60,743 nucleotides of DNA, taken from an uncultured Granulosicoccaceae bacterium (GTDB taxonomy: Bacteria > Pseudomonadota > Gammaproteobacteria > Granulosicoccales > Granulosicoccaceae). Every line of letters starts with the position of its first letter. Position 1 is the first letter of the stretch. Both the position numbers and the translations under genes were made by a program. The DNA lies in NCBI GenBank assembly GCA_937981955.1, contig CALJNA010000067.1, positions 1-60,743 of the forward strand. Direction: 5' to 3'. The notes beneath the pieces were generated by a model. It was given only the letters and a program-made list of their open reading frames with translations. It was not told where the DNA came from and made no database searches. This document shows, piece after piece, positions 624 through 20,300 of this stretch.

Positions 624-773
624 CTTTCAATGTTTCTACCGGTAAATCAGGAAGTTACTCCGAAAGAACCCCGAAATTTAGGCGAAATCGCTTTTGTAAC
701 TGCTTTGTTGACTGGAAACAGATCAATCGCCCGAGTTATATTGTCGTTGAGTGTTTAGTGCTTATTTGATCTG

Positions 774-3314
774 ATGCGCAAGGAAAATCAGGGTAGTGAT
801 ACGGGTTCTAATCAACCCGATTCGGCCGAAGAGCAAGCGCTATCGGCCTACTTTGGTGGTTTCAGATACCATGCAAACCGCAAGTGCCTCGTTTCAGTAT
901 CAGGTGAAGAGCGGAGACTGCGAGCACAATCGCTTTCGGTTTTTGAAGAACTGGCAAAATGGCCTGACCAGGTTGTCTCCAAAACGCATTTAACTGAAAA
1001 AATCTGGCCCAATGTTCACGTAACCGATGATTCCATCGGAAAGTGCATTTCTGATATTCGCAAAGCTTTATCAGATACGGACCATGTTGTGTTAAAAACG
1101 GTACCTCGTCAGGGCTACATGCTTGTCGCTGATCGCGTACCTGCCTGTGCAGAAAGAAAGGGTAAAGCCAGCAATGGTCAACAAGGCTTACGGATGATAC
1201 TGGCTTTCGCGCTTGTCGGATTGGCTATTGTTTGGTTGACTAAAAGCGATGGAACTCCTGAACGCTCAATACAAAGTGTCAGTTCTATATCGGGTACACC
1301 ACGTATCAAACTGGTTGATCGATTGGATAATACAGTTGCGTCAAATGAATTCGCCGCCGGTGTTTTGCCAGAGCTACGGGTTGCATTAAGCCGATATCGG
1401 ACCTTAGAGCTATCGGATGCGGAGGTGACCGATTACAGTATTGTTCTTGAAGGAATTGGGCAAAACAAGTTAGCCGTAGAGTTGCATAACGGCGCATCAT
1501 CTCTGGTTTATGCACAAACTTTTGACAACGCGCAACTACCAGCTTCGACGACTCAGACAGCGCAGCGTATCGCTGCGTCTATAGCTTCGCCAGGTGTGGG
1601 AGCACTTGACCGAGAATTACTCCGAGCATCGAGGCTTAAACCGATTGAAGAACTGAGCCATGCAGAGTGTTTTGCCCACGGTTTCGGCTGCTCGAAATGT
1701 TCCGGGGAAGAGGACAGCATTACGAAACGTGCGGAAGCTTGCCTGGCACATATACTGGAAAACGATCCAGAGAATCCTCGTGCACTCGCCCTGCAAGCAA
1801 CCATTCACGCGCACCAATATTGGTGGGGGAATACTCTCCCAGAGCCGTTGCGAAGTCATTTAAAGTTACGAAAACATCTACCCTCCAAGGCGATCAGTGC
1901 AGCTAACAGAGCAGAGGCTTTGTCCGTGGGTAACGATAGCGCTATATACTGGGGCATGAGCGAAGCTTATTACGCTTCGTGTGAGACCGACAAAATGGCT
2001 GCGTCGATTGAACGTGGGCTTGAAATCAACCCGGCTGATCCGAATCTGTTAGCAGCGTTTGGAAACTGGTTGTCCTATTCGGGTAGATGGGATGAAGGTG
2101 CTGCTCTGACACAAAAGGCGTTGGATTTGGAACCTCAGCATTATCGTAAATGGTGGTGGATGGGCTTGGCGAAAACGCATTACTTTAAAGAGGAGTATCA
2201 GGAAGCTTACGACGATTTTTTAAAATCATTTAATGAGCGTAATTGGGTAAGCCATTTACAGTTTGCGTACACATTGCCCCATCTGAATCGTATTGACGAA
2301 GCCAAACAGGCGGTAAAGCGATTGCAGGATCTTGCTCCACAAATAACCATAGAAAAAGCCCTGGAGCAATACAAAATACTCTGTTTTCCTGAAAGCTTCC
2401 TTTTGAATATGAAGCATGCTTTGCAAATGGCAGGCTTACCTTCACGTGGTAATAGCGACTCGTTCTCTGATATTACTTTGCCGCGAGCGAAAATCATGGA
2501 CTTGAATGGCTACACTGCAGAGTATCTTGATGTAGGGCAGGGTGAGCCTGTTGTGTTTGTGCATGGGTCAATATCCGACTACCGGTCGTGGGGCTTTTTT
2601 CTTGTGCCAATATCCGAAAACCATCGTTTCATTACTTACTCCCGCCGCTATCATGGCACCCAGGATTGGGTAGATGATGGTAAAGACTACAAATCGAAAA
2701 TACATGCTGACGATCTGGTGGAGTTTGTAGAAGCGCTTGACATTGGTCCTGTACATCTTGTGAGTTGGTCAACCGGTGTAATTACCGCCATGCTTGCGTC
2801 GATTGATCGACCTGATTTGTTTAAAAGCGCCGTACATTTCGAACCGGTGGATACAGCGATATTTGAAAAACAATCGGTTGATAATGCTCAATTGCAGGAG
2901 TGGTATAGCCGTTGGGAAAAATATGGTCAGGCAATGGAAAATAACGATGTTGAACTTGCACTGGAAAGATTTGTGGAAATTGTATTTCAGTCGGGCGACG
3001 GTGGTTATCAACTTGAGCGCGAATCTGTGCAAGAGATTGTGCGGCAGAATGCCCGGACACTCATACCGGAAAATGCAGAGTCGGATGAAACTCGATGGTC
3101 CATTGATTGTGAAAAAGCCGGGGAAAATACAATACCCACTCTGTTTGTAAAAGGTAATTTAAGTCACTACTTTTATGCAAAGCAGACTGAAATTTTCGCC
3201 GAATGCAGCGGTGGTGCGCTAGTGTCGATTCCCGATATTAATCATCGAGGGCCAATTGATGGGGTGTTACCGATGACGAATATAATTTCAGAGTTTGTCG
3301 CCCAACATCAATAG
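774..3314 (+). CDS. CadC-like winged-helix regulator fused to TPRs and an alpha/beta-hydrolase domain
   Basis: An 846-residue membrane-linked multidomain protein. Residues about 25-115 form an OmpR/CadC-type winged helix (LTEKIWPNVHVTDDSIGKCISDIRKAL...VPRQGYML). A single hydrophobic segment follows at about 139-157 (ILAFALVGLAIVWLT). Residues about 290-520 contain TPR-like helices. The C-terminal domain from about 573 is an alpha/beta hydrolase with VVFVHGS (oxyanion region), a nucleophile elbow SWSTG with Ser666, and a candidate catalytic His824 in DINHRGP; the acid residue is not obvious. In CadC/ToxR-type proteins the part after the transmembrane helix is periplasmic, so the hydrolase may be an extracytoplasmic sensor or enzyme. 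Targets and substrate are unknown. The gene converges on polB with about 115 bp between. Confidence 0.85.
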   Translation: MRKENQGSDTGSNQPDSAEEQALSAYFGGFRYHANRKCLVSVSGEERRLRAQSLSVFEELAKWPDQVVSKTHLTEKIWPNVHVTDDSIGKCISDIRKALSDTDHVVLKTVPRQGYMLVADRVPACAERKGKASNGQQGLRMILAFALVGLAIVWLTKSDGTPERSIQSVSSISGTPRIKLVDRLDNTVASNEFAAGVLPELRVALSRYRTLELSDAEVTDYSIVLEGIGQNKLAVELHNGASSLVYAQTFDNAQLPASTTQTAQRIAASIASPGVGALDRELLRASRLKPIEELSHAECFAHGFGCSKCSGEEDSITKRAEACLAHILENDPENPRALALQATIHAHQYWWGNTLPEPLRSHLKLRKHLPSKAISAANRAEALSVGNDSAIYWGMSEAYYASCETDKMAASIERGLEINPADPNLLAAFGNWLSYSGRWDEGAALTQKALDLEPQHYRKWWWMGLAKTHYFKEEYQEAYDDFLKSFNERNWVSHLQFAYTLPHLNRIDEAKQAVKRLQDLAPQITIEKALEQYKILCFPESFLLNMKHALQMAGLPSRGNSDSFSDITLPRAKIMDLNGYTAEYLDVGQGEPVVFVHGSISDYRSWGFFLVPISENHRFITYSRRYHGTQDWVDDGKDYKSKIHADDLVEFVEALDIGPVHLVSWSTGVITAMLASIDRPDLFKSAVHFEPVDTAIFEKQSVDNAQLQEWYSRWEKYGQAMENNDVELALERFVEIVFQSGDGGYQLERESVQEIVRQNARTLIPENAESDETRWSIDCEKAGENTIPTLFVKGNLSHYFYAKQTEIFAECSGGALVSIPDINHRGPIDGVLPMTNIISEFVAQHQ

Positions 3315-3429
3315 TTGCAAAAAGCTCATACGAAAATGATTTGTGTGTGGGGCGATCATGCCGCTCAAATTCTCTATTCACCTTTCTACATGAGACGTTG
3401 TGGGTAAAACAAGTAACCTTACACGGAGG

Positions 3430-5739
3430 CTAGAACATTTGCATCTGCGCATCTGTTATTGCGCTAAAGCTTGTGTCCAAAAACTGAAGAATACCATCGG
3501 CAGCGGGAGCCAGCTGCTTATCCATATAGTGTTGGTAATCGGGCAAAGATGTCAAATTGTCTGTGGGTTCCGGACCATTTCGAGTAATAACATAGGTGAC
3601 CCAACTGCCCGGCTTTGAGCGCATCTTGCGAGCAGCCTGAACGTGGGGTGGTACGTTGCGCTGGTAGTCATCAACTTTTCTTCTTAATCGTTTGCGGTAA
3701 ACAATATCCTTGTCTCTGTCTCCGTTAAGCAATTCTGTGGCTGTGTTTCTAACAAATTCTTCAAAGGGCTGATCGTTGAAGACGAGATGAAACAGGGAGC
3801 GTTGAAAATCCCGAGCCAGTGGAGTCCAGTCCGTACGCGCAGCTTCCAAACCCTTAACAATCAAATTGGTTTGATTGTTCTCATCAATAACGATTCCGGC
3901 ATAACGTTTTTTACTGCCTGTTGGCATGCCGCGAACCGTTGGCATTAGGAACCGACTGTAGTGTGTCTCATATTCGACTTCAAGATGGCAGTCCAGATTG
4001 AATTCGCTTTTTAGTTTCTGCGTCCACCATTTGTTTAAGGAGTCGGTAAGACGATTCCCTATTTTGTCAGCGCTATCCTTGGTGTGGTTTTCCCCGAGCA
4101 GTACAAAGAGCGAATCGGTATCACCGTAAATAACGCGATAACCATGTTCTTCAATTTTATCCCGAGACTGTGTAATGATATCGTGCCCGCGTCTGGTAAT
4201 ACTGGATGCCAACTGATGAGAATGGAATCGGCAGCCGTTCGTTCCAAGCACTCCGTAAAAGGAGTTCATTATGATCTTTATGGCTTGTGAGAGCGGCTTG
4301 TTATTTTCCCGCTTTGCATCGTCTCTTGCTTTCCAAAGCTCTGAGATTATTCCCGGCAAAATGTGGGTATCGCGTGAGAAACTGGCTTCCATGAATCCTG
4401 GCACCGGATCGGAACCGGGCTGTGAAAGTCCCATTGGGTCAATACAAAACGTTCGTATAATACTTGGGTACAGGCTTTTAAAGTCAAGCACTAACACGTT
4501 CTGATATATACCGGGCGCTGAATCCAATACATATCCACCAGGGCTACCCAAACCATCGGAGGTATTATCCACATCAGGGGCAACATAACCATGACGGTGT
4601 AATCGAGGTAGATACAAATTGTCAAACGCAGCAACAGAGCCGCCTAGACGATCAATTGCAAGCCCAGTCAAGTTTGCTCTTTGTACAGCAAACTCTATTA
4701 GATCGGCCTTGATGAAAATATCGTTCACCAGCTGGCAGTCTTTTATGTTGTAGTCGGCCAGTTTCGGTTTATCGTTTTTGAACAAGTGATTAATTCGCGC
4801 AACTTTATCTTCACCTGTGGAGATCAGTTTTCCCTCGCCAAGCAGTTCATGAGCCACATTGTCCAAAGAGAAACTATCGAAAGCCCAGAACCCCGCTTTG
4901 AGTAGATCGATTCCGTCGAGCACAGCGCGGCCGGGTATTTTTGCGATACGCGGTTGCCCCGGATTACCTGGTTGAAGAATAGCGGCCGAATCGCCCCCGC
5001 GTCCCATATCGAATCGAATACCCAATGCCCGACATTTTCTGTCAATAAAGCTCAGGTCAAAATTCACGATAGCCCAACCGATGATAATGTCAGGATCCAC
5101 ATCTTTAAGCCATTGGAAAAATCGCGTGAGTAATTCTCGTTCATCGGAACAGTAGTGAAGCTGGTAGCCATCTTGTTTTTCCGCTGTTCCCGAGCCAATC
5201 ATGTACACGTGATTCTGTGCAGCATCGCCGTGCATGACCGAACCTGCGATGGAATACAACTGATCTGTGCTGCCGCGGGTTTCAATGTCGACTGACATTG
5301 CTGTAAGTGCAGGTTGTATTTTTGCCGGCTTAATGCGAGCACCATTCATGCTCCAGAAGCCTTCACGATTAGTGAGTTCCCCCGATGCTTCAAACCCCGC
5401 GCAGACAAAACGCTCCATCAGAAAACGATCGCTGGGTTTTATATCGGACTCGTGCAGCGGGACCAATTGAGTTCGCAGGCTTTGCAAGTCTCTTTGGTGT
5501 TTAAAGTATAGAGCGTCAATCGGTTGATTATTTAAATTTCTTAGCTCAGGCGAGTCTCTGCGCACGTTACGTGGCAGATGCACGTGGGTTTCACGGTCGA
5601 TAAAGCAAACCGCTTCCTGATTTGAAATTGATATCCGAACGGGGCCCACTGGCGTTGAACCCCAGAAACAGAGCTCAATACCGTGATTTGTGTCTCGCCA
5701 GTGACGGGTGAGTAAGTAGCCTGTAATGTCGTTTGCCAT
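3430..5739 (-). CDS. polB: DNA polymerase II (family B)
   Basis: A 769-residue family-B DNA polymerase, close to the 783 residues of E. coli PolB. The 3'-5' exonuclease begins with DIETRGS (Exo I) at about residue 150 and contains NFDLSFIDRKC further on. The polymerase motifs are intact: LDFKSLYPSII (motif A), a KIIMNSFYG segment (motif B) and YGDTDSLFV (motif C with the two catalytic Asp). In enterobacteria Pol II acts in replication restart and translesion synthesis and is SOS-induced. I found no convincing LexA box in the 61 bp before the divergent gene at 5801, so SOS control here is not supported. An ImuAB cassette lies elsewhere in the window. Confidence 0.96.
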   Translation of the reverse strand: MANDITGYLLTRHWRDTNHGIELCFWGSTPVGPVRISISNQEAVCFIDRETHVHLPRNVRRDSPELRNLNNQPIDALYFKHQRDLQSLRTQLVPLHESDIKPSDRFLMERFVCAGFEASGELTNREGFWSMNGARIKPAKIQPALTAMSVDIETRGSTDQLYSIAGSVMHGDAAQNHVYMIGSGTAEKQDGYQLHYCSDERELLTRFFQWLKDVDPDIIIGWAIVNFDLSFIDRKCRALGIRFDMGRGGDSAAILQPGNPGQPRIAKIPGRAVLDGIDLLKAGFWAFDSFSLDNVAHELLGEGKLISTGEDKVARINHLFKNDKPKLADYNIKDCQLVNDIFIKADLIEFAVQRANLTGLAIDRLGGSVAAFDNLYLPRLHRHGYVAPDVDNTSDGLGSPGGYVLDSAPGIYQNVLVLDFKSLYPSIIRTFCIDPMGLSQPGSDPVPGFMEASFSRDTHILPGIISELWKARDDAKRENNKPLSQAIKIIMNSFYGVLGTNGCRFHSHQLASSITRRGHDIITQSRDKIEEHGYRVIYGDTDSLFVLLGENHTKDSADKIGNRLTDSLNKWWTQKLKSEFNLDCHLEVEYETHYSRFLMPTVRGMPTGSKKRYAGIVIDENNQTNLIVKGLEAARTDWTPLARDFQRSLFHLVFNDQPFEEFVRNTATELLNGDRDKDIVYRKRLRRKVDDYQRNVPPHVQAARKMRSKPGSWVTYVITRNGPEPTDNLTSLPDYQHYMDKQLAPAADGILQFLDTSFSAITDAQMQMF

Positions 5740-5800
5740 TTGCTCAGTTTACAAAGGTCATCGTGTAACATGCTAGTGTCTGAAACAACATTTATGCACC

Positions 5801-6370
5801 ATGCATCGTTATTTACCTGGAATATTGCTCGTACAAATTGTAACCGCTGTATTGTTGTGGGTGAATATCAATGCCGAGCCGCGTGATCTTGCCGTTCAGT
5901 TTGGTGTTCCCGCTTTGCTCGTTTGTGTCGTTACCGGTCTGTGGTTTGCCAGTATTGCCCGTGCAGATGCGGAGCGGGCGAGCGCTAAGATTCGGCTACA
6001 GCATGCAAAAGAGCGAGAGCAATTACATATCAAAGCCGAGAAAAGCAAAGCCAAAATATTAGAAAAATCTCACAAGGAAATTCGTAAAAACGAAAAGCGC
6101 GTTAGTCGAATTGCAAGCTTGAAAATAAGTTTGGCATTCATCGGTGCGGCTATGGCTGGCATTATTATGGTTATCACTGAGCTGTTCACACTAGGGCTCA
6201 TGACCATCATGACTACTGTTGGTGGCTTGGGCGGCTATCTGGTTCGAGCACGTCAGTCTTATGACGTCAATAATGGCTCAGCCCAAGAATCTCCGTTAGA
6301 AATTGACAGTGATGAGACTTTTGCCGAGTTGCCACCACCGCCATTGTCCGCTCCGGACAACAATAAGTAA
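5801..6370 (+). CDS. Membrane protein with cytosolic basic coiled coil, unknown function
   Basis: A 189-residue protein I do not recognise. It has two N-terminal hydrophobic segments (about residues 4-22 and 33-53), then a highly charged Lys/Glu-rich helix (about 55-105, probably coiled coil), then a long hydrophobic stretch at about 108-150 that could form one or two membrane helices. The tail is Pro-rich (PPPPLSAP). It is divergent from polB with only 61 bp between the starts, so the promoters must be close or overlapping. It is followed by a 292-bp gap before the large surface-protein cluster. No enzyme motif is visible. Confidence 0.7.
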   Translation: MHRYLPGILLVQIVTAVLLWVNINAEPRDLAVQFGVPALLVCVVTGLWFASIARADAERASAKIRLQHAKEREQLHIKAEKSKAKILEKSHKEIRKNEKRVSRIASLKISLAFIGAAMAGIIMVITELFTLGLMTIMTTVGGLGGYLVRARQSYDVNNGSAQESPLEIDSDETFAELPPPPLSAPDNNK

Positions 6371-6662: not shown

Positions 6663-8537
6663 TTGTTAGAGCGTGCCTTGAGAAAGACAGCAAAAATCCG
6701 ATTTATTTTGCCGATGCTACTGGCAGTGGCGGGTAGTGCTCTGTTTGCTGAAAAGGCAAGAGCGCTGGTGCTGACACCGTATTTCGAGTCGATTCTTGTG
6801 CCAAATGTGTCCACTGCCTGGACTACGGTAGCATTGGATAACACCTACTCGAACGCCATACCGGTTTGCACCTATGTGCTTGACACCTTTGCAGGAACCA
6901 ACCCGAACTACACAAACCCTCCAGCAGTAACGCGAATCCGCAATATTGGCGCTTCCTCTTTTGATCTTCGAATACAGGGTTGGGAAAACTCAGCCGCCTC
7001 TACCGGCGATGTGCATTGCATGGTGATGGATGAGGGTGCGCACACGTTACCCGATGGCAGATTAGTCGAAGCACACAGTGTTGTATCTGATCAGACCAAT
7101 GGTCAGTACTCCACAGACGGTGCTTGGTCAATGGCATTAATGGAAGACGTTAGTGCCAGCATCGTTCACTCTTATACCAATCCTGTCGTTGTAGGCCAGG
7201 TGATGAGTTACAACGACACACGTGCCAGCGTGATCTATGTAACTGATTGTGATGCTCGACAGAATCACCCATTCATGACAGGCATGGCCGATGGCATTTG
7301 CGTTGGTAAACACATTGGCATGATACCAGGCACGCGCAATCCGGAAACCATCGGCTACATCGTGGGTGAAACCGGCAGCGGCACTATTAACAACGTCTTT
7401 TACGAACTGGCGCTCGGCGCTGACGCCATAGCCGGTAACAATGGAGCGAATAACGGCGGTAGCTACGGTTTGTCCAGACACCACACCATGGGTGTTTTGA
7501 CGCAGGCTGCTGAAGATGGTGGCAACGGTTCATGGGCTGTGTTGTACGGCAGTACGCCACTCACGGCCAGTGCGATGGGGCTGGTGGTCGATGAAGAAAT
7601 TTTTGCCGGAGACACAACCCGAAATCACACAACGGAACCTGTTTATTACTGGGCATTTGCCGGTGCTGAAATTACGCTGGTCAAAAAGCTCATTAATGAT
7701 GATGGTGGTGCTGCCACGATAAACGACTTTATTTTAAGCGCAACAGGCCCTGATTCAATTTCCGGGGTTAGTGGTACCACAGCCGTTACCAAGGCTGTGG
7801 TTGAACCAGGTACATACGTTATATCCGAAACAACCGTACCTGGCTACATCGCAGGAACCTGGAGTTGTGTGGGCGCAACCAATACCTCTGGTAATAAAAT
7901 TGAATTGGTAGGTGGCGACCATGCGACTTGCACCATCGTAAACGATGACGAAAAATTCTCGACGCTGACACTGGTCAAGTCGCTGACCAATGATTCAGGT
8001 GGCAGCGCAGCAGAAAGTGATTTTACATTGTCATTCTCAGGCAGTGGTGGATCTGGTAGTGGAACCACAGGTGATACTGCAATTACTTCTGCGCCTGTCC
8101 CTCCCGGTAGTTACACCTTGTCGGAAAACAACGTCACTGGTTATCTTCTGGAAAGCATCAAATGTGACGGCACAGATTCAGATGGAACAGACGGGCTGGA
8201 TATACAGCCGGGTGAAAAGATCATCTGTTACTTCGTCAATAATGATCAGGGAGTTGATCTGAACATCACCAAGTCGGTAAGCAATCTTGCGCCGAACATT
8301 GGTGACACGCTTACCTTCACGTTGCTGATTAGCAACACAGGGCCGGATACGGCCACAGATTTACAAGTTCTTGATCCGGTACCCGCTGGTTTTACCTATG
8401 TCGCAAGTTCGATGGCAGGTGGTGATATTCGCGATGACAGCACTCCCACCGGAACAGGTTTGGACTGGACAATAAATAGTTTACCTGCAGGCTCGTCTAC
8501 GTCACTGACGTTTCAGGCGATCGTGCTGGCACCGTAG
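6663..8537 (+). CDS. Exported tip-like protein: novel N-terminal domain, two CnaB-like repeats, C-terminal half DUF11 domain
   Basis: A 624-residue exported protein, first gene of the surface cluster. The start is TTG at 6663 or TTG at 6678; an in-frame TAA at 6651 excludes anything earlier, and the later start gives a tidier signal peptide (RKTAKIR then FILPMLLAVAGSALFA, cut near ARA). Residues about 37-335 form a domain I do not recognise, Gly/Asn-rich with several Cys. Two prealbumin/CnaB-like repeats follow (about 335-433 and 434-529), each with Lys in strand A, Glu in YxxSE and Asn in the closing (V)NDD/NND. From about 530 a DUF11 domain begins (VDLNITKSVSN...) and stops abruptly at SLTFQAIVLAP before its usual last strands. 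The unique domain and first position suggest the distal tip of a fibre. The next gene starts 15 bp on with an AGG ribosome site. Confidence 0.85.
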   Translation: MLERALRKTAKIRFILPMLLAVAGSALFAEKARALVLTPYFESILVPNVSTAWTTVALDNTYSNAIPVCTYVLDTFAGTNPNYTNPPAVTRIRNIGASSFDLRIQGWENSAASTGDVHCMVMDEGAHTLPDGRLVEAHSVVSDQTNGQYSTDGAWSMALMEDVSASIVHSYTNPVVVGQVMSYNDTRASVIYVTDCDARQNHPFMTGMADGICVGKHIGMIPGTRNPETIGYIVGETGSGTINNVFYELALGADAIAGNNGANNGGSYGLSRHHTMGVLTQAAEDGGNGSWAVLYGSTPLTASAMGLVVDEEIFAGDTTRNHTTEPVYYWAFAGAEITLVKKLINDDGGAATINDFILSATGPDSISGVSGTTAVTKAVVEPGTYVISETTVPGYIAGTWSCVGATNTSGNKIELVGGDHATCTIVNDDEKFSTLTLVKSLTNDSGGSAAESDFTLSFSGSGGSGSGTTGDTAITSAPVPPGSYTLSENNVTGYLLESIKCDGTDSDGTDGLDIQPGEKIICYFVNNDQGVDLNITKSVSNLAPNIGDTLTFTLLISNTGPDTATDLQVLDPVPAGFTYVASSMAGGDIRDDSTPTGTGLDWTINSLPAGSSTSLTFQAIVLAP

Positions 8538-8552
8538 TTATAGGTTGATGTT

Positions 8553-11500
8553 ATGAGAGTTATTAAAAAGCGAACGCTAAGAGCAATAATTAATCGAACT
8601 ACGCGAAAAACACGCGTAGTGCTTTTGCTGGTTGGTGTATCTATCCCATTAACGGCTTGGTCACTTGGCTTGTCGGACTATTTGAATCAATCAACGGTGA
8701 CGGCATCGTCATCGCAGTTTGAAACAAACACGTCTAACAATACTGACACGGTGCAAATAATTCCCAACGCCGAACTGATTGTTGTGAAACAGGTTATAAA
8801 CGACGATGGTGGTGTTGGTAGCCTGAATGACTTTGTTGTGGCCAGTGACGCGGGAACTTTGAATTTTGATGCTGGCGTGCTGTCAGGCAGCACGACAACA
8901 TTTACATCCGACACGTTATATGTACCACCAGGCACGTATTCGCTAACCGAAATAGACTTTGATGGTTACACCGAAGGTGCATGGTCTTGTACCGTTGGCA
9001 CGGTAGGGAATACTGCGTTCGATTCAGGCTCTGTAACGTTAGCGTTTGGTGAGCAGACCGTTTGTACCATTGTCAATGATGATATTGCTCCAACCCTGAC
9101 ACTGGCCAAAACCGTTGTTAATGACGACGGCGGTATTCTTGCTGATACCGATTTCTCCATATCGATTGACTCTACAGTCGTATCCAGTGGCGCTGCCACA
9201 ACGGTTGCTGCCAACACACCCATTCTTATTAGTGAATTGGACGTGGATGGCTATACAGAAGGCACCTGGTCTTGTTCTGATGCCAACGGCCTGACTACAT
9301 CACTGCCGACTGCTGGTCTGGCTACTGGCGAGTCTATTACGCTTGCATCGGGTGCCGATGTTACCTGTTCTATCACCAATGACGATATTGCGCCCACATT
9401 AACCCTGACCAAAACTGTGGTGAACGATAATGGTGGTGATCTGGCCATTGTTGATTTTGATATTTCCATAGACGGTACGGTTGTTACCAGCGGCACTCCA
9501 AACACCGTTCTGGCTAATACAGCACTGACCATTTCAGAACTTGACGTTGATGGTTACACAGCGGGTACCTGGGCGTGTACCGATGCTACCGGCCTGACAA
9601 CAGGATTACCAAGTGCCGGCGTTGCCACCGGTGAAGCGGTCACGCTTGCCTCTGGCAGCGATGTCACTTGTGCCATATCTAACGATGATATTGCACCGGT
9701 ACTAACACTGACCAAGACGTTGGTTAATGATAATGGCGGTGTTAATACCATCAGCGATTTTGATATATCTATTGATGGCACTGTAGTTACCAATGCTGCG
9801 CCTAACACCGTTCTGGCGAACACACCGATCACTATTTCAGAACTTGATCTTGATGGTTACACCGAGGGCACCTGGGCATGTACTGATACAAACGGCTTAA
9901 CCGCTACATTACCTACCGCCGGTGTTGCAACCGGGGCAGCATTGACACTGGAGCCGGGTAGTGACGTTACCTGTGCCATTACCAACGATGATGTTGCGCC
10001 TTCTTTGACACTGGTGAAGGTATTGTCTAATGATGATGGCGGGCTCAAGACAATAGAAGACTTTGACATATCCATTGACGGAGTAGAGGTCGTTAGCGGT
10101 AGCAACAACATCGTGGCTTCTAATACTAACATCACCATTTCAGAACTTGATCTGGATGGTTATACAGAGGGTACCTGGTCGTGTACAGACTCTACTGGCC
10201 TGACTAGCGGATTACCAACAGCCGGTGCTGCAACAGGAGCAACGATCAGTCTTGAAGAAGGTTCGATTGTAACCTGTGAAATCTCCAACGATGATATTGC
10301 TCCGTTGCTGACATTGACCAAAACCGTGATTAATGATGATGGTGGTCTGCTGGCGATTGATGATTTCGATATTTCAGTTGATGCAGCTGAAGTAACCAGC
10401 GGAACGCCGAGTACAGTGCTGGCTAATACGCCTATAACCATCTCTGAACTGGATGTTGATGGTTATACCGAAGGTACTTGGGCATGTACCGATGCAAACG
10501 GGCTAACAACCACATTGCCTGCTGCGGGAACCGCAACTAGCACGTCTCTAAACTTACTGCCAGGCTCTGATGTGACATGCGCCATTACGAATAACGATAT
10601 TGCACCGACACTCACGTTAACCAAAACACTGGTTAACGATAACGGTGGTGATCTGACCATTGCTGACTTTGATGTGTCTATTGATGGCGTTGAGATTGTT
10701 AACGGTGGCTTGAATTCCGTGACATCGAATGTTGCCATATTGATCAGTGAATTGGACATGCCTGGATACACCGAAGGCACATGGTCTTGTACAGACGCTT
10801 CGGGCCTTACTGCAACACTACCAACCGCAGGCCTTGCCACCGGTGAATCGATTACCCTTGCGCCTGGAGCGGTGGTGGATTGTGCAATCAGTAATGATGA
10901 TATTGCACCAACCCTTACGTTGACCAAGACCGTTGTTAACGATGATGGTGGTGACAAGGTGATTAGCGACTTCAACATATCGGTTGATGGTGTTGTTGTA
11001 CCTTCCGGTGCCATTAATACCGTAACGGCGAATGTGGGAGTACTGATATCTGAGTTGAATATTCCTGGATACACATCCGGAACGTGGTCTTGTGCAGATG
11101 CAGCAGGGTTAACATCCGGACTGCCTACCGCTGGTGCCGCTACCGGAGAGTTGATCACGCTTAAGCAGGGAAGTGACGTTACATGTTCGATCACTAACGA
11201 TGATATTGCACCGACTTTGACATTGGTGAAAACCGTTGTGAATGACAATGGTGGTGACAAGGTTATCGACGACTTTGATATTTCGATTGACGGGGTAGAA
11301 GTAACCAGTGGCACCGCCACTACAATGACTGCCAATACCCTGATTACTATCAGCGAACTTGACCTGGTGCCTTATTCGGAAGGTACCTGGGCTTGTAGTG
11401 ATGCAAACGGTTTAACAACTGGATTGCCAAGCGCCGGGCTTGCGACTGGAACCGATATTAGTCTGCTGCCAGGTTCGGATGTGACTTGTTCAATCGTCAA

Positions 11501-11798
11501 TAACGATTTGGGTATTGATCTAACCATTGCCAAGGCTGTTGATGACCCTACACCGAATATTGGTCAAACCATCACGTTTACATTGGAAGTGTCGAATGCG
11601 GGTCCAGATGTTGCCACGAATGTAACGGTAACAGACCCGGTACCAGCAGGCTTTACCTATGTTGGTTCGTCAATGAGCGGTGGAGATGCATCGAGTGATG
11701 CAGACCCAACGGGTGCAGGATTGTCCTGGACAATCAACTCGCTTCCGGTTGGTTCACCTGCTTCACTGACGTTTCAAGCAGTTGTAAACGCGCCATAA
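8553..11798 (+). CDS. Exported stalk-like protein with nine tandem CnaB/prealbumin-like repeats
   Basis: A 1,081-residue protein with a long basic n-region and hydrophobic core (VVLLLVGVSIPLTAW) as signal peptide. Residues about 38-70 look like the C-terminal strands of a DUF11 domain (LNQSTVTASSSQFE...SNNTDTVQIIP) without the rest. Nine repeats follow from about residue 72 to 985; repeats 2-9 have a unit of exactly 101 residues. The consensus is LTKTVVNDxGG...DFxISIDG...ISELDxDGYTEGTWxC...GSDVTCxITNDDIAP. Each keeps a Lys, a Glu, a terminal Asn and two Cys, as expected for CnaB-type folds with a possible isopeptide bond and a disulfide. The protein ends in a DUF11 N-terminal part that stops at SLTFQAVVNAP, the same point as in the preceding protein. 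It is probably a rigid stalk subunit. Long antisense frames across it are repeat artefacts. Confidence 0.9.
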   Translation: MRVIKKRTLRAIINRTTRKTRVVLLLVGVSIPLTAWSLGLSDYLNQSTVTASSSQFETNTSNNTDTVQIIPNAELIVVKQVINDDGGVGSLNDFVVASDAGTLNFDAGVLSGSTTTFTSDTLYVPPGTYSLTEIDFDGYTEGAWSCTVGTVGNTAFDSGSVTLAFGEQTVCTIVNDDIAPTLTLAKTVVNDDGGILADTDFSISIDSTVVSSGAATTVAANTPILISELDVDGYTEGTWSCSDANGLTTSLPTAGLATGESITLASGADVTCSITNDDIAPTLTLTKTVVNDNGGDLAIVDFDISIDGTVVTSGTPNTVLANTALTISELDVDGYTAGTWACTDATGLTTGLPSAGVATGEAVTLASGSDVTCAISNDDIAPVLTLTKTLVNDNGGVNTISDFDISIDGTVVTNAAPNTVLANTPITISELDLDGYTEGTWACTDTNGLTATLPTAGVATGAALTLEPGSDVTCAITNDDVAPSLTLVKVLSNDDGGLKTIEDFDISIDGVEVVSGSNNIVASNTNITISELDLDGYTEGTWSCTDSTGLTSGLPTAGAATGATISLEEGSIVTCEISNDDIAPLLTLTKTVINDDGGLLAIDDFDISVDAAEVTSGTPSTVLANTPITISELDVDGYTEGTWACTDANGLTTTLPAAGTATSTSLNLLPGSDVTCAITNNDIAPTLTLTKTLVNDNGGDLTIADFDVSIDGVEIVNGGLNSVTSNVAILISELDMPGYTEGTWSCTDASGLTATLPTAGLATGESITLAPGAVVDCAISNDDIAPTLTLTKTVVNDDGGDKVISDFNISVDGVVVPSGAINTVTANVGVLISELNIPGYTSGTWSCADAAGLTSGLPTAGAATGELITLKQGSDVTCSITNDDIAPTLTLVKTVVNDNGGDKVIDDFDISIDGVEVTSGTATTMTANTLITISELDLVPYSEGTWACSDANGLTTGLPSAGLATGTDISLLPGSDVTCSIVNNDLGIDLTIAKAVDDPTPNIGQTITFTLEVSNAGPDVATNVTVTDPVPAGFTYVGSSMSGGDASSDADPTGAGLSWTINSLPVGSPASLTFQAVVNAP
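9100..11523 (+). repeat. Eight consecutive 303-bp coding repeats
   Basis: The segment starting with the codons for TLTLxK recurs at about 9100, 9403, 9706, 10009, 10312, 10615, 10918 and 11221, a period of 303 bp with no length change. Protein identity between units is high, but third positions differ widely, for example the codons for the VNDDGG motif. This suggests old duplications held by purifying selection rather than a recent expansion. A ninth, more diverged unit lies before them at about 8775. Confidence 0.9.
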
Positions 11799-11802
11799 GC
11801 AA

Positions 11803-14800
11803 ATGATGAATCGTCTTTCAGTCAAGCTGCTTAGTGCCACGGCAGCCCTGTTCTTCGGATCAGGGCTGACGTCGGTCTATGCGCTTACTGAAACCGATTT
11901 TACCAACACTGGTATCGTTCTCTCTGCGCCAACGCAATATGAGAACAATGATAATAATAACAATAGCGTCGTATTGGTGCAGCCAAAAGGATTGACGGTT
12001 GAGAAGGTGGCTGACGCATCGACCATGTCTACGCCTACGCAGTTGGGCGATGTGATCAGTTATACCATCACGCTGGATAATATTGGATTATTAGGCCTAA
12101 CTGGTATTACGCTGGCAGACTCTATTATACCGGCTGCGAACCTGACCTTAAGCGCAGGAGACAGTAACAGCGATAGTGTTCTCGACGCCGATGAAGTTTG
12201 GGTCTATAACGGCAGTTATGCGGTAACTCAGTCTGATATCGACAGTTTCGGTGGCGGCGATGGTGATATCGATAATACAGTAACGGTATCAAGCAATGAG
12301 CTGGATCCAATCACTGACGATGCGGAAGTGCCCATCACACAAGCACCGGCATTCACCGTTGTCAAAACCGTAGATAAACCATCGATATCTGCACCTGGCA
12401 CACTTACTTACTCAATAGCGGTAAAGAACACCGGTAATCAGACACTAACCGGCATTAGCCTGAACGATGCGCTACCCGACGCATCTGTTGGCTCACCTAC
12501 CGGTCCAAATGCTGATACCGGCATTTCCGGTGCGCTGGATGTCGGCGAAACGTGGACATATATCGTTAGCTATAACGCAACTCAAATTGACATAGATTCC
12601 GGTGCTCCACTGGTTAACACAGTTAGCGTGACAACAACTGAAACCGGCGCGGATATTCAATCGGACAATGCGCAGACAACGATTGCCAAAGCACCGGCAA
12701 TGGTTGTGAAGAAGGATGTCGACATACTGGATATCAATGCACCAGCAACACTTGGTTATATTATTGTTGTAGAAAATACCGGTAACGTAACGCTCAACAA
12801 TGTGACACCTGTTGATACCTTGCCCGATGGTAGCAACGGCGTGCTTGCCGGACCTTTGAACGACTCGGGCATAGCAGGCGCATTGGATGTTGGAGAAAGC
12901 TGGACTTATAACGTTTCTTATAACGCTCCACAGGGTGATATTGATGCAGCGCTTGATCTGGTTAACACGATTATCGTTACCTCTGACGAAACGGGCACTG
13001 ACCCGGTAACGGATACGGCTTCAACCACTATAAAAACAGCACCGTCCATGACGGTGTCTAAAGCAGTTGATATAGCTTCGATCAATTCACCTTCAACGCT
13101 TAACTATTCCATTTTTATCGAGAACACGGGCAATGTCAGCCTTAGTAATGTTGCACCTGTAGATACTTTGCCTGATGGCACCACCGCAACCTTGGTTGGG
13201 CCGCTAACAGATACCGGTTTGGCCGGTCAGCTTGATGTGGGTGAAATCTGGGAGTACACCACCAGCTATGCTGTATCACAGTCAGAAATTGATCTTGGTT
13301 TAGCGCGCACCAATACCGTTGACGTTACGAGTACTGAAACGGGTGGCGATGTGTTTAGCGATACAGCGCAAACGACTATTGCACGCTCTCCTGCCTTTAC
13401 GTTGGCAAAGTCTGTTGATGCTGCAAGTATTACGGAACCGGGAGTACTCAACTATCAAATTGTTATCAACAACACGGGCAATACCTCTTTAACTGATATT
13501 CAACTTAGTGATACCTTGCCTAATGCTACGTCTGCGATACTGACTGGGCCCGTTGCCGATATCGGAGCAAGTGGGGTTATGGATGTCGGTGAGAGCTGGA
13601 CGTACATTGGTCAGTACACAGCAACCCAAGCTGATATAGATTCTGGTACGGCCCTAACGAACAGCGTAACCGTATCAACTGCAGAAGCTGGCAGTCAGGA
13701 TGACACCGCTGTAACCTCAGTTAGTCAAGCGCCTGGTATTGATATAGCCAAGGCGAACACCGAAACCGAATTTACCGCTTTGGGCGACACCGTAAACTAC
13801 ACCCTGACGGTGACCAACACCGGCAACGTCGTATTGTCGAATATCGTTGTTAGCGATCCGATCGCAGATGCGAGCTCGCTAACTTGCGCATTGCCAATGC
13901 CGTTTGTCTTACAACCTGGCGCACAAACGACGTGTACTGCGACACGCAGTGCAGCAGTTATAGACATAAGCGCTACTCAGATTGTTAATCAGGCCAGCGT
14001 TAGTTCAGACGATCCGGCAGGTAACAATGTTTCTTCTGTCAGTAACACGGTTATTGTGCAAATGCTGCGGATACCGCCGTTGGCAACTGATGATGACTTT
14101 CAATCACCGGTGGGCGCAGTGCCGATCACTTTGGAAGGTGCCACGGATGATATGGATACCAATGCTGATCTTGACCCGACAAGCGTGAACCTGACGGGTG
14201 CAGGTGCTACCGATCTGGATGGTGACGGGGACAATGATACGCTTGTTGTGGCAGGTGAAGGCACCTGGTTGGTTGATGATGCAACGGGCCAGGTCACGTT
14301 CACTCCATTGCCCGGGTTCACGGCAGATCCCACCCCAACAACTTATACCGTCAGTGATGCGACCGATTTGGTTTCAAACGAAGCACTGTTGAGTATCGAT
14401 TACCCACAAAGCGCTCCGGTTGCTGAAGATGATTACAAACAAAACACTCAGGTGGAAAGTCCGACCAATCCTACAACGTTAAATGTACTGGCTGACAATG
14501 GTAGTGGTGTCGACAGCGATCCGGAAAACGATATTGATGTTCAAAGTGTTAATTTTGTCAGCGCAGCGGCTGTGGACAGCGATGATGACGGAGATAACGA
14601 TACATTAGTCGTTGCTGGTGAAGGAACCTGGGTTATTGACAATGCATCAGCCAATGTCACCTTCACCCCGGAAGCTGGATTTCTGTCAGACCCGACCCCC
14701 GTCTTCTACACGATATCAGACATTAACGGGCTGGTGTCTAATGAAGCGCTTATCACGATTGATTATCCGCAAACAGCACCGGTTGCCAATGACGATGAAA

Positions 14801-17355
14801 AACTGAATCAGCCGTTAGGACAGCCGGCGACGGTTGCGACCGTCGTTAATGACGAAGACCCTGAGAATAATCTTGATCCAACGACTGTAATGTTGCTCGA
14901 TCCGGATACTGCCAATCGAGTAACCACTCTGACTATTCCCGGTGAAGGTGTTTGGACGGTTGACCCGGCAACTGGTGATATTACGTTTACTCCAGAGCCA
15001 GGGTATGTAGAAGACCCTGCGCCTGTTCAATACACCGTTAGCGATACCACCGGTCTTGAATCGAATATTGCGTCGGTTATCGTTTCCTACGAAGAGCCGG
15101 CTGCGCTCGAAGGTATCGTCTGGCTTGATGCCGATCGCGACGGACAGGTGGGTGCTGACGAAGAACGCAAAGCCGGCTGGACGCTTAAGGTTTATGACGA
15201 TAACGGCACCCTCGTGGCCACAACAATGACCGATGCAGACGGCTATTATCTCGTTGAAGGCTTGATACCCGGCGTGTTTACCGTCGAATTCTTTAACGAG
15301 AATGGTGTCTTTATGGATATCCAGACCACCGACGGTATTGTTTCCGCAGGTGAAATGGTGAACTTGCCCTTACCGGTAGATCCAGGCGGAGTCGTGTACG
15401 ACAGCATAACGCGTGAAGCCGTCGCTGGCGTAACCTTGAACATGGTAAATGTCAAAGGTGACTTGTTACACCCAGATTGTCTGTATGCAAATCAGCAGTC
15501 GCAGGTAACAACTGACGATGGTCTGTATGCATTCAATCTGAATCCGGGTGCACACAATACCTGTCCATCAGAGGGCATTTATCGCATCCAGATTGCAAAT
15601 GCTCCAACAGCGTATCACCCGAACTTTTCTGCGATTATCAGACAGGAAGGAGCGGCAAGCTGCGGCGATGTAACGCTTGGCTGTGCCGTATCGCGTACGT
15701 TTGAATCTGATGTAAACGAGACAAATTGTACGATCGACTCTCATCCTGGTACCAATGCTTGCGAGGTACAGTTTCAACCTGATGCGCCCGATGAGAAACA
15801 ACAGACTCAGTACTTTGTCGAGTTCTACATTCAAAGCGGTGATCGTAACGTCATCTTTAACCACTTGCCAATAGATGCGCGTGCCAACGATGCTCAAATT
15901 CTATTGAGTAAAACCGCTGATAAGCGAGCGGTGTCGGTTGGTTCGTTTGTCGAATACACGCTTACGGCTGAGAACACCAAAGAAGTCCCGGCTGTTGATA
16001 TAGCCATTGTTGATGATCCCCCATCTAACTTTAGCCTGGTTGCCAGCTCGATTCGAATGATTCAGGCAGGTGTTGACGGAGAATTTGACACTGCTGATGA
16101 CGCTGTTCAAACATTGAACCCGAGCGATTTGAATCCGATTTTGCTAAACGGTATTGACTTTGAGCCGCTTGAAACGATTCGTTTTAAATACGTTATGCGC
16201 GTAGGAGTTGGTGTTGTAGCTGGTAGTTACGCCAATAAGGCCACAGCCAGCGGGCTGGGTGGTGTTGCGAGTAACACCGTATCTGCAACGGTCGAAATTA
16301 TTCCCGATCCGGTGCTGGAACAAGCGACGCTGGTTGGTAAAGTCTTCAATGACCGTGATGCCGATGGTGCGCAAGACCCTGCAGGTGCAACTGGTGTTGC
16401 GCTGCGCAGCGATCACTACGGCTGGAACAGTTTGAACCTGCCACCGTTACCGGGCAGAGACAGTGTGAATGATGACCCGGCAGAACATGCAGCGATTGTA
16501 AATATGCCGATATCTGATAACAATCGATTTATGGTGGTTACGCGTGAAGGAACACGTATCAGTGTTGATCACGAAGGCACAATATCTGAAGCACACGTAG
16601 GTGCCAAGGCCCGCGGCATGAACGCTCAGGACATTCGCGTTTGCACTCAATATACCCGGGCAATTCCAACTAATCAGCAAGGTACAAGCACCGGCGATGG
16701 TGTTGAATCTGATGTATTGCAGATTGTGATTCAGAACTACGGTGTTAATGAGGAAGGAATACCGGGTGTTCGTCTTGCGACCGTAACCGGCCTCCTGATT
16801 GAGACAGACGCTTACGGACGGTACAGCATTCCAGATGTAGATGCGGGTACAACCGGCATAGGTCAAAACTTTGTGCTTAAAGTAGACCCTGCGACCTTAC
16901 CTCAAGGTTCCCGTTTCACTACTGAAAACCCATATGTGTTGCGCATCGTTAATGCGTCTTTGAACAAAATTAATTTCGGTGTTCTGGTGCCGGATGATGA
17001 TCCATATCTGGAAGTGGACAGTCAATTGTGTATTCAGGATGAGAACGAGCAGGTTTACCAGAGTGTGGAAGTCAGTCTGGGATCGGTATTTTTCGATACT
17101 GATAAACACAACGTTCGCGAAGATCAGCGCGGCATCGTACTCGATATAGTTAATAAACTGCGTGAGTACGGTGGTGGGCAGATACTAATTGAGGCACATA
17201 CCGATTCGCGCGCCAGTAAAGAATACAACCTGAAGCTCGCTGAACGTCGCGCCGAGACCATTCGCAATATTCTCAGTGAAAGTCTGGGAAGTGAAATGAT
17301 GGAGCTTATTAGCGTGGATGTAAATCCGGCAGCCTACACGGAGCAGGAACAATGA
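11803..17355 (+). CDS. Giant exported mosaic protein (DUF11, CshA-like, SdrD-like, OmpA C-terminus)
   Basis: A 1,850-residue protein with signal peptide (SVKLLSATAALFFGSGLTSVYA). Just after the cut lies a DUF11 C-terminal strand set (FTNTGIVLSAP...NNNNSVVLVQP). About six DUF11/DUF7507-like Ig repeats reach about residue 750 (motifs YSIxxxNTGN and LDVGExWxY). Three CshA-type fibril repeats follow at about 755-1095 (GEGTWxVDxATGxVTFTPxPGF, then YTxSDxxGLxSN). An SdrD B-like domain starts near 1100 (GIVWLDADRDGQ), then a complete DUF11 at about 1364-1500, a second SdrD-like module at about 1506 (LVGKVFNDRDADG), and an OmpA C-terminal domain from about 1755. The OmpA motif HTDSRASKEYN...ERRAET keeps the Asp and Arg that bind diaminopimelate in peptidoglycan. 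Cluster order and domains suggest a cell-wall-anchored base. The stop overlaps the next start (ATGA). Confidence 0.9.
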   Translation: MMNRLSVKLLSATAALFFGSGLTSVYALTETDFTNTGIVLSAPTQYENNDNNNNSVVLVQPKGLTVEKVADASTMSTPTQLGDVISYTITLDNIGLLGLTGITLADSIIPAANLTLSAGDSNSDSVLDADEVWVYNGSYAVTQSDIDSFGGGDGDIDNTVTVSSNELDPITDDAEVPITQAPAFTVVKTVDKPSISAPGTLTYSIAVKNTGNQTLTGISLNDALPDASVGSPTGPNADTGISGALDVGETWTYIVSYNATQIDIDSGAPLVNTVSVTTTETGADIQSDNAQTTIAKAPAMVVKKDVDILDINAPATLGYIIVVENTGNVTLNNVTPVDTLPDGSNGVLAGPLNDSGIAGALDVGESWTYNVSYNAPQGDIDAALDLVNTIIVTSDETGTDPVTDTASTTIKTAPSMTVSKAVDIASINSPSTLNYSIFIENTGNVSLSNVAPVDTLPDGTTATLVGPLTDTGLAGQLDVGEIWEYTTSYAVSQSEIDLGLARTNTVDVTSTETGGDVFSDTAQTTIARSPAFTLAKSVDAASITEPGVLNYQIVINNTGNTSLTDIQLSDTLPNATSAILTGPVADIGASGVMDVGESWTYIGQYTATQADIDSGTALTNSVTVSTAEAGSQDDTAVTSVSQAPGIDIAKANTETEFTALGDTVNYTLTVTNTGNVVLSNIVVSDPIADASSLTCALPMPFVLQPGAQTTCTATRSAAVIDISATQIVNQASVSSDDPAGNNVSSVSNTVIVQMLRIPPLATDDDFQSPVGAVPITLEGATDDMDTNADLDPTSVNLTGAGATDLDGDGDNDTLVVAGEGTWLVDDATGQVTFTPLPGFTADPTPTTYTVSDATDLVSNEALLSIDYPQSAPVAEDDYKQNTQVESPTNPTTLNVLADNGSGVDSDPENDIDVQSVNFVSAAAVDSDDDGDNDTLVVAGEGTWVIDNASANVTFTPEAGFLSDPTPVFYTISDINGLVSNEALITIDYPQTAPVANDDEKLNQPLGQPATVATVVNDEDPENNLDPTTVMLLDPDTANRVTTLTIPGEGVWTVDPATGDITFTPEPGYVEDPAPVQYTVSDTTGLESNIASVIVSYEEPAALEGIVWLDADRDGQVGADEERKAGWTLKVYDDNGTLVATTMTDADGYYLVEGLIPGVFTVEFFNENGVFMDIQTTDGIVSAGEMVNLPLPVDPGGVVYDSITREAVAGVTLNMVNVKGDLLHPDCLYANQQSQVTTDDGLYAFNLNPGAHNTCPSEGIYRIQIANAPTAYHPNFSAIIRQEGAASCGDVTLGCAVSRTFESDVNETNCTIDSHPGTNACEVQFQPDAPDEKQQTQYFVEFYIQSGDRNVIFNHLPIDARANDAQILLSKTADKRAVSVGSFVEYTLTAENTKEVPAVDIAIVDDPPSNFSLVASSIRMIQAGVDGEFDTADDAVQTLNPSDLNPILLNGIDFEPLETIRFKYVMRVGVGVVAGSYANKATASGLGGVASNTVSATVEIIPDPVLEQATLVGKVFNDRDADGAQDPAGATGVALRSDHYGWNSLNLPPLPGRDSVNDDPAEHAAIVNMPISDNNRFMVVTREGTRISVDHEGTISEAHVGAKARGMNAQDIRVCTQYTRAIPTNQQGTSTGDGVESDVLQIVIQNYGVNEEGIPGVRLATVTGLLIETDAYGRYSIPDVDAGTTGIGQNFVLKVDPATLPQGSRFTTENPYVLRIVNASLNKINFGVLVPDDDPYLEVDSQLCIQDENEQVYQSVEVSLGSVFFDTDKHNVREDQRGIVLDIVNKLREYGGGQILIEAHTDSRASKEYNLKLAERRAETIRNILSESLGSEMMELISVDVNPAAYTEQEQ

Positions 17356-20300
17356 TCATCCGACTATTCGTGTACCTGGCATTGGCGGCGTCCATTATAT
17401 CCATGGGTAATTTGCCTGTGTTTGCCGCGGAAAAAAGCGAAGAAGAATGTAAGTCAGAAGATTGTGAAAAGCCTGCGCCTTATGTTCTGCGCATAATAAA
17501 GTCTGGCGAGGGTACCCCTCGATCGACTAATAAAACCGACAAAGGAAAACAGGATAACCGACGAGTCGATGTTACGTTAACACGTAAAGTTCCTGTTGAT
17601 AAAGTCAAAACGGAAAACCGGCGCGCATTGTTCGGAACCGGTGGAGCCGTGTGGATATCGAAAGACCCCACATCGCTTGATCGTATTCTCACTATCAAAA
17701 CGGCTGCGACCGTTGCTGTGCAAGAGGGTGAAATTAGTTCTCCGATTTCATTCGAAGCCGAGTCGAACTACACCCACTTTATAGATCAGCTTGACTTGCT
17801 TATCTGGCCAGCCGACGCTACTCAACTGACAAATCCGATGTTAGTTGCACCACTGAATGCATCGTTGGAACAACAAAGTTGGGAGTGGGATGCAGCAGTC
17901 GACAATCTGGAACTGAAGCCCGGACTTGAAATACAGTATGCGCTACGAGCGACCGACGGTAAGGGACGTATTGATCAGACCGTCAGGCAGTCCTTAAGTT
18001 TTATTCAGGCTGATAAGGATACTCAAGACATTGCGACGGTGCCGGACCTGTCAGTCTTGGAGAACACCGAAACTACAGATGGTCAGTATGTAGAACTGGA
18101 ACGCGAGTCCATACCGATTAAAGGAAGTAAAGTTCGAGTACTTGGTCAGGACCTTAAGCCCAGCAGCCAGGTCACTATCAATGAACAACAGGTTGTTGTA
18201 GATAAGGATGGTCGCTTTGGGCTGGAGTATTTGTTGCCAGAAGGCGAACACAGTTTTAACGTCAGGGTGTTGGATGATGAAGATCAGATACTGGAAAAGC
18301 AGCTGAATATTGATTTGGATAGTGACTACTTTTTCATGGTTGCGTTGGCTGATGTAACGGCCGGCAAGAACAAGGTCAGTGGTTCACTTGAACCATTGGC
18401 GGTAGATGAGCATCATTATGGTGGTGACATATTTGTCGATGGGCGTCTGGCTTTCTATTTGAAGGGAAAGGTGCGTGGAAAATACCTTATAACCGCGCAA
18501 ATGGATACCGGGACCGAGAATATTGAAAATCTGTTCGACGATTTCCATCGCAAAGATTCTCAAAGTGTTTTCCGACGACTGGATCCGGACCAGTACTACC
18601 CGGTCTATGGTGATGATTCACAGCTAACGGATGACACTGACAGTCAAGGCAAGCTTTATGTTCGTGTTGACTGGGACCGTTCAAGACTGCTGTGGGGCAA
18701 CTTCAACACCAATTTTACCGGAACCGAGTTTGCGCCATTCAATCGTAGTCTTTATGGTGCTCAGCTCTTACACAATAGTACGATCGATACCAGCCTCGGT
18801 GATGCCACACACAGCCTTAATATTTTTGCATCAAAAGCGCAAAGTCTGTTTCGCCATAACGAATTTCTTGGAACAGGTGGTAGTCTCTACTATTTGCGCG
18901 ACACCGATATAGTCGCTGGGTCGGAAAAAGTCTGGGTAGAAGTACGACAGTCCGGAACTGAACGTGTCGTACAAAAGGTACCGCTTGTTGCCGGGCGTGA
19001 CTACGACATAGACGATTTTCAAGGCCGCTTAATCTTACGCCGGCCTTTACTAAGTGTGGCCGCGCAGGGTGGTCCTTCGATTATTCGTGATGAGCCGCTT
19101 GCAGGCAACCAGACCTTTCTTATCGTCGATTATGAATACAGCCCAGCGAATCTTGAATTTGATGACGCCAGTGCAGGTGTACGAGCAAAGAAATGGCTTG
19201 GAGATCACTTAGGCGTAGGTGCTACCTGGGCACATGAGCAGCGCGCTGGTGCTGACTACGATATCAAAGGCACCGATGTTACTTTAAAAAGGTCTGATCA
19301 AACATTTATCAAAGGCGAGTTTGCACAATCTGAATCATCTCAGACGTCGGGTAGTTTCATCTCCGACGACGGTGGATTGAGTTTTTCACCGTTCGTCAGT
19401 AATACCGCTCAAACAAAAGGCAGTGCCTTTGGCATTGAAGCCCGTGCGTCACTGACCGACTTTAAGCCGGCCAGCCGACAGCTTGAAGTAGGTCTTTGGA
19501 CCAAAAGGCAAGAAGCCGGATTTTCTACCGCCAATACTGATGTTGGTGTTGAAACGACGGACATAGGTCTGGAAGCGGTTTCACGACCCAGTGACCGTTT
19601 TGCATTGTATGGGCGAGCCAATCGATTGCACAGAAAAAACGAATCTACCGAGATGAGTTTGTCAGGGCAAGTCGATTTTATTTACTCCGACAGGATTACT
19701 GTATCTGGTGAATTACGTAACACGCGAGAGGAGAATCACGCGGCCAATACTAATGGTGAATCTGCATTGGTTGCTGGAAAAGTGTCTGTTGATGCCACCA
19801 GTAATCTTAATGTCTACGGGTTGCAACAAATCACTGTTAAGCATAGCGGCACCGAGTCAAAGAATAATTCAGCGACAATTGGTGCACGATATTCTGCCAG
19901 CAATAGGTTGAGCCTGACAGGTGAAGTGAGCGCTGGAGACCGTGGCAACAGTGCGCTGCTAGGTACTGAAGTTAACTTGAGTGATACATACAGTGTATAC
20001 ACCAATTACACCTATTCATTTAATCGCGACAGGGTCGAGAAGAATTCCTTTGTACTGGGGCAACGAAAAACGCTAAGTAGTCAACTAAAAGTGTATTCAG
20101 AGCATCAGTTCACTGATGAAGACAATCGGAATGGCTATGCCCATACCGTTGGTCTGGATCAACAATTTACCCAGTACACTTCTGCCAGTCTGTCGGCTCA
20201 GAGGGCTGCTGTGGAAAATGACGACGGGACTAACACTGAACGCAACACAGTGTCAGCCGGCCTGGCATATCAAAAAGATCGTACCCGTTTTAATTCAAAA

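Follow-up and report, generated by a model that had tools for sequence, protein, structure and literature searches.

Covalent pili of Gram-positive bacteria depend on sortases, and fibres built by donor strands are mostly non-covalent. In chaperone-usher pili, type V pili and TasA, an incomplete Ig-like domain is reported to be completed by the N-terminal strand of the next subunit, and the archaeal thread of Saci_0406 combines head-to-tail donor strand complementation with a proposed inter-subunit bond (PMC9715654). That bond was proposed to link Asn57 in subunit n with the N-terminal amine of Asp24 in subunit n+2, not a Lys with an Asn side chain, and DUF11 is not mentioned in the text (PMC9715654). 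Here, we analysed the window, the whole 60,743-nucleotide contig C67 in the genome (4.34 Mb, 76.7% complete) of an uncultured marine Granulosicoccaceae bacterium, in which four codirectional genes, P1 to P4, span positions 6663-20954 of the forward strand in the list of open reading frames (ORFs). The first three probably build a surface fibre, P1-(P2)n-P3, with P1 as its tip, P2 as its stalk and P3 as its base. From sequence and structural modelling, the joints of this fibre are predicted to be DUF11 domains split between subunits, and are probably covalent.

DUF11 was renamed CLIPPER after the crystal structure 9IFR, derived from Acinetobacter silvestris B9T28_05395, a Gram-negative, OmpA-anchored fibrillar adhesin in which an isopeptide bond joins Lys715 to Asn806 and Asp748 is presumed to be catalytic (PMC12617251). 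The P1-P3 system resembles 9IFR in its fold and in the aligned Lys and Asp. However, domain and bond of 9IFR lie within one chain, whereas the domain of P1-P3 is shared by two gene products. SpyTag/SpyCatcher and related pairs are likewise split isopeptide domains whose halves react when mixed, and engineered cuts were reported to react across chains for two of the four CnaB domains of one study (PMC5487036). In contrast to these engineered pairs, P1-P3 would represent a natural cut, in a CLIPPER domain, and in contrast to chaperone-usher pili, type V pili and TasA, its tail has two strands and its bond is predicted to be covalent. No natural split DUF11 or CLIPPER domain was found in the accessible parts of the literature searched, the nearest case being the archaeal thread (PMC9715654).

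A DUF11 domain divided between neighbouring genes

P1 (624 aa, 6663-8537, with an uncertain TTG start codon) comprises a signal peptide, an N-terminal domain without known family, two SpaA-type domains and a C-terminal open DUF11 domain. Its N-terminal region (6768-7661) is well conserved among relatives and has no match to any family or solved chain. P2 (1081 aa, 8553-11798) starts 15 bases further on and carries a signal peptide, a donor tail, SpaA-type repeats and another C-terminal open DUF11 domain. P3 (1850 aa, 11803-17355) follows after 4 bases; it has a signal peptide, a donor tail, DUF7507, DUF11, CshA and SdrD_B repeats, and a C-terminal OmpA match. The acceptor domains of P1 (P1C, 8250-8534) and P2 (P2C, 11511-11795) both extend over 95 residues from a G-[VI]-D-L start to the same final residue, with the ends SLTFQAIVLAP and SLTFQAVVNAP, and their Pfam DUF11 matches halt at profile positions 84 and 85 of 114, respectively. 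Directly after the signal peptides, which were judged by eye, stand the donor tails P2N (residues 38-73, 8664-8771, two strands) and P3N (residues 28-63, 11884-11991).

P2N alone matched DUF11 positions 89-114 (16.0 bits, E 0.016). When it was joined to P1C, the profile score rose from 79.9 to 98.2 bits over positions 1-114, whereas two control tails, the mature N-terminus of P1 itself and the reversed P2 segment, gave 79.3 and 80.8 bits. The resemblance of the tail fills exactly the part of the DUF11 profile that is absent from the acceptor, and is beyond chance when compared with these two controls. These results bear out the original prediction that P1 and P2 stop in mid-domain at the same residue and that the missing segment comes right after the signal peptide in both P2 and P3; the complete domain that it had placed near residue 1400 of the third protein fits a DUF11 match covering about residues 1368-1484 (15904-16254). 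As read from sequence and model, the arrangement is of the donor-strand type, with a subunit domain lacking strands that the N-terminus of the next subunit would supply.

AlphaFold2 was run on a read-through chain in which the two halves were joined by a read-through linker, 12 of the 26 rows being joined likewise. In this chain the donor tail docked with a predicted local distance difference test (pLDDT) score of 92-96, as compared with 51-58 for the linker. The model matched the whole solved CLIPPER domain 9IFR and showed the CnaA-like beta-sandwich fold of that family, and 9IFR was the only PDB entry retrieved with a profile of the junction (E 0.0042), its Lys and Asp aligning with those of the subunits.

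All three residues of the CLIPPER isopeptide site, Lys, Asp and Asn, were found across the subunit pair. Lys537 (8271-8273) and Asp571 (8373-8375), which align with those of 9IFR, lie on P1C, and Lys994 (11532-11534) and Asp1028 (11634-11636) on P2C, while Asn45 (8685-8687) lies on P2N and Asn35 (11905-11907) on P3N; the Asn residues were placed by alignment of the segments and by their position inside the docked strand, not by residue alignment with 9IFR. Since Lys and Asp belong to subunit n and Asn to subunit n+1, the predicted isopeptide bond would link two subunits, and the split CLIPPER joints probably lock covalently.

Distribution of the split in Granulosicoccales and beyond

Strong matches to the C-terminal region of P3 (E 3.6e-173 or better) were obtained in 22 of 48 genomes of the order, that of the window included. 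Twenty relative loci were taken, 15 of which contained the P2 and P3 ends in question; two others (L057, L059) were cut by contig ends and three (L066, L067, L069) were giant-chain types. All P1 and P2 C-termini present in the window and these loci ended at an identical position (30/30), with domains of 95 or 96 residues, the P1 row of L065 containing masked residues; Lys was kept in 29 and Asp in all 30. A 36-residue Asn-bearing segment occurred at each of the 32 P2 and P3 N-termini present (two rows were caught as 35). The regular expression used for this segment required Asn; the five rows that it failed to match all belonged to P3 and were ORFs cut by a contig end or of the giant-chain kind, none being an intact short N-terminus that lacks the Asn. 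The length of P2 ranged from 480 to 1597 aa among the loci. The claim that strands of subunit n+1 complete the domain of subunit n is well supported by this conserved split, together with the profile joining, the AlphaFold2 model and the match to 9IFR.

A wider survey searched 76 sequences, comprising the window, L070-L109, L140-L163 and L184-L194, with a DUF11 model of 135 columns built from 10 complete domains. As the sequences were mostly picked by likeness to P3 or P4, the survey is not an unbiased census, nor is it independent of the 30 C-termini above, most Granulosicoccaceae loci in L070-L096 being assemblies of L050-L069. It returned 57 matches lying at most 8 residues from an ORF end, all of which halted at model columns 84-90. 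The same ORFs contained 77 complete DUF11-type domains, so that the cut at a stop codon is a special case. In 51 of the 57, the next codirectional ORF started -163 to +70 bases from the acceptor end, and every one of these 51 ORFs was read as opening with a signal peptide and a donor tail, with Asn in 49 and Asp in 2. When those of the first scan were added to the 57 survey acceptors, inspection by eye found Lys in 58 and Asp in 59 of 59 acceptor domains. The six acceptor-only orphans were found in L084 (two), L091, L160, L161 and L193.

The window and Granulosicoccaceae contributed 32 of the 51 pairs; the other 19 belong to further loci or systems, namely L098, L099, L100 (Sphingobium xenophagum), L102 (Erythrobacter), L103 and L109 (Aurantiacibacter), L105 (Porphyrobacter), L185, L101 and L107. 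The split-domain pattern is also found in sphingomonads, among them Sphingobium xenophagum NBRC 107872. The two tails with Asp in place of Asn belong to 151-aa sphingomonad proteins (L099, 3583-4038; L100, 6673-7128) that consist of a donor tail and an acceptor domain and are encoded between the tip and stalk genes. In L101 (a Granulosicoccaceae metagenome-assembled genome) and L107 (Altererythrobacter), the cut domain looked by eye like the related DUF7507 type; both loci contain three-gene chains (247-6333 and 313-6244, respectively) with ends reading ...TYTVTQADIDNLQ and next genes beginning ...IVNTATV.

Alternative readings and the proposed fibre

Strand complementation might occur without a covalent bond, as in chaperone-usher or TasA fibres, Lys, Asp and Asn being kept for fold or ancestry. 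Isopeptide bonds are reported to be absent from some DUF11 domains and are not universal in the Pfam family (PMC12617251), Lys has been lost in one relative, where Ser replaces it in P2C (L068/L091), and Asp stands for Asn in the two sphingomonad 151-aa proteins. Yet the almost complete retention of the three residues among acceptors and tails argues against such joints, and SpyTag is an example of an isopeptide bond between Lys and Asp (PMC6539128). This non-covalent form is unlikely. Far less probably, the C-terminal domains need no partner, or find their completion in some other part or protein, and the N-terminal segments are unrelated leader remnants: the weak resemblance of the isolated tail to the profile would suit such remnants, but the tail fills precisely the absent part where two control tails fail, docks with high confidence in AlphaFold2, and follows the acceptor in most survey cases.

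An artefact is scarcely credible, whether one gene that was broken or misassembled or stop-codon read-through yielding one polypeptide. By their ORF coordinates, P1 and P2 share a frame in the window and in 9 of the 15 loci, and giant single-chain relatives exist. However, the frames differ in the 6 other loci, as do those of P2 and P3 in the window, a signal peptide sits between the halves, and the boundary is repeated in many species. Broken gene and read-through were rejected on the differing frames and the intervening signal peptides.

Several observations weigh against a covalent fibre of split CLIPPER joints. P3N added only 9.1 bits to P2C (88.1 to 97.2 bits), a small gain. In the AlphaFold2 model, the tail was tethered to P1C by the read-through linker instead of being a separate chain, and many Ig-like chains matched this model as well as 9IFR did. 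The replacement of Lys by Ser in L068/L091 points the same way. A chaperone that might keep the open domains soluble was not found among the seven proteins scanned with Pfam (P1-P4 and three upstream neighbours), which contained no PapD-type chaperone or usher family, the rest of the genome not having been searched. Finally, plasmids of Sinorhizobium meliloti, Roseovarius, Nitratireductor and Eleftheria, in which a P3-type C-terminal region adjoins a P4-like barrel gene, encode one giant chain of 1859-4306 aa, and no split DUF11 was found in these four relatives, taken from 16 records.

For the covalent fibre of P1, P2 and P3, the following assembly can be envisaged. The subunits would be exported separately via Sec, after which subunit n would receive the tail of subunit n+1 in its open C-terminal domain. 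With the aid of Asp571 (or Asp1028), and no enzyme, Lys537 (or Lys994) would then form an isopeptide bond to Asn45 in P2 (or Asn35 in P3), yielding a natural tag/catcher joint and a covalent chain P1-(P2)n-P3. P1 and P2 carry no C-terminal LPXTG-type sorting signal of the kind used in sortase-assembled pili, but end in ...LAP and ...NAP directly after the acceptor strand; a sortase gene was not sought. P1 has an acceptor only, P2 a donor and an acceptor, and P3 a donor only, a valency that fits the polarity P1-P2-P3, and since P2 combines a tail with an open domain, n may exceed one. The order tip-stalk-base given in the original prediction agrees with this valency, but its statement that strand matching sets the order was overstated, as the non-neighbour combination P2C+P2N (104.2 bits) outscored the neighbours P2C+P3N. 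This highest score suggests that P2 may polymerise on itself.

Acceptor-only ORFs ending in an open DUF11 domain were also found on other contigs of the genome of the window (L160, 1323-2741, reverse strand; L161, 8810-9502, forward strand), which suggests that tips may be exchangeable. The L161 ORF lacks a signal peptide, which the overlapping ORF before it possesses, and may be broken. Acceptor-ended ORFs with other N-terminal parts lie near a split operon in L091 (5645-6535, reverse strand) and L084 (700-2259 and 16795-17514), and are perhaps alternative tips. In L193, two adjoining ORFs (9044-12055 and 12215-13684) both have an acceptor-like end, the first identified by eye, and lie far from the gene of P3 type in that genome.

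The base of the fibre and its possible link to the barrel

The C-terminal domain of P3 (P3C, 17038-17352) is an OmpA domain without its C-terminal part (match 1-66 or 1-67 of 98, depending on the scan), and would anchor the base at the cell wall beside P4 as an outer-membrane partner. P4 (1200 aa, 17352-20954), which overlaps the end of P3, is a probable outer-membrane barrel whose sole Pfam match, PF13505, is below cut-off; in three named plasmid relatives, the gene at this position bears the annotation TonB-dependent receptor or OmpA family protein. After its signal peptide, P4 carries a segment (P4N, 17472-17594) resembling the final stretch of OmpA-type domains. Ten P4 N-termini, combined into a profile, hit 29 PDB sequences (best E 6.3e-5), of which 26 are by name OmpA, MotB, Pal or TssL-type, two are outer membrane beta-barrel domain-containing proteins and one belongs to photosystem I. 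Counted by eye, 22 loci have OmpA parts at the P3 end and at the start of the next gene; only the first part occurs in L084, L087, L088 and L090, L083 and L091 are cut, and in L159 both parts lie within one 2297-aa chain.

Other results speak against a split OmpA domain. Joining the P4 segment to the OmpA domain of P3 gave no gain in score, none of the ten P4 N-terminal segments had a Pfam OmpA match, AlphaFold2 confidence was low, and the four plasmid relatives showed no such split. The cut is also not clean, as P3 appears by eye to keep a strand that the P4 segment seems to repeat. The evidence that P4N completes the OmpA domain of P3 is mixed, and such a completion is possible. Elsewhere in the window, an 846-aa ORF (774-3314) combines a winged-helix regulator domain, TPR-like repeats and an alpha/beta hydrolase in one chain.

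The most extended picture, an enzyme- and sortase-free covalent Gram-negative fibre built from split CLIPPER halves, with exchangeable tips and a chain reaching the barrel via a split OmpA domain, has about an even chance of being correct. The split form looks like a giant adhesin divided into separately exported pieces, and adhesion to surfaces is the likely role of the fibre, which fits the life of Granulosicoccus on kelp surfaces (PMC8944128). If true, a natural split isopeptide domain would represent another route to a covalent fibre, in which the subunits alone drive assembly, and a natural counterpart of SpyTag/SpyCatcher, for which the relatives offer dozens of natural pairs (51) for comparison.

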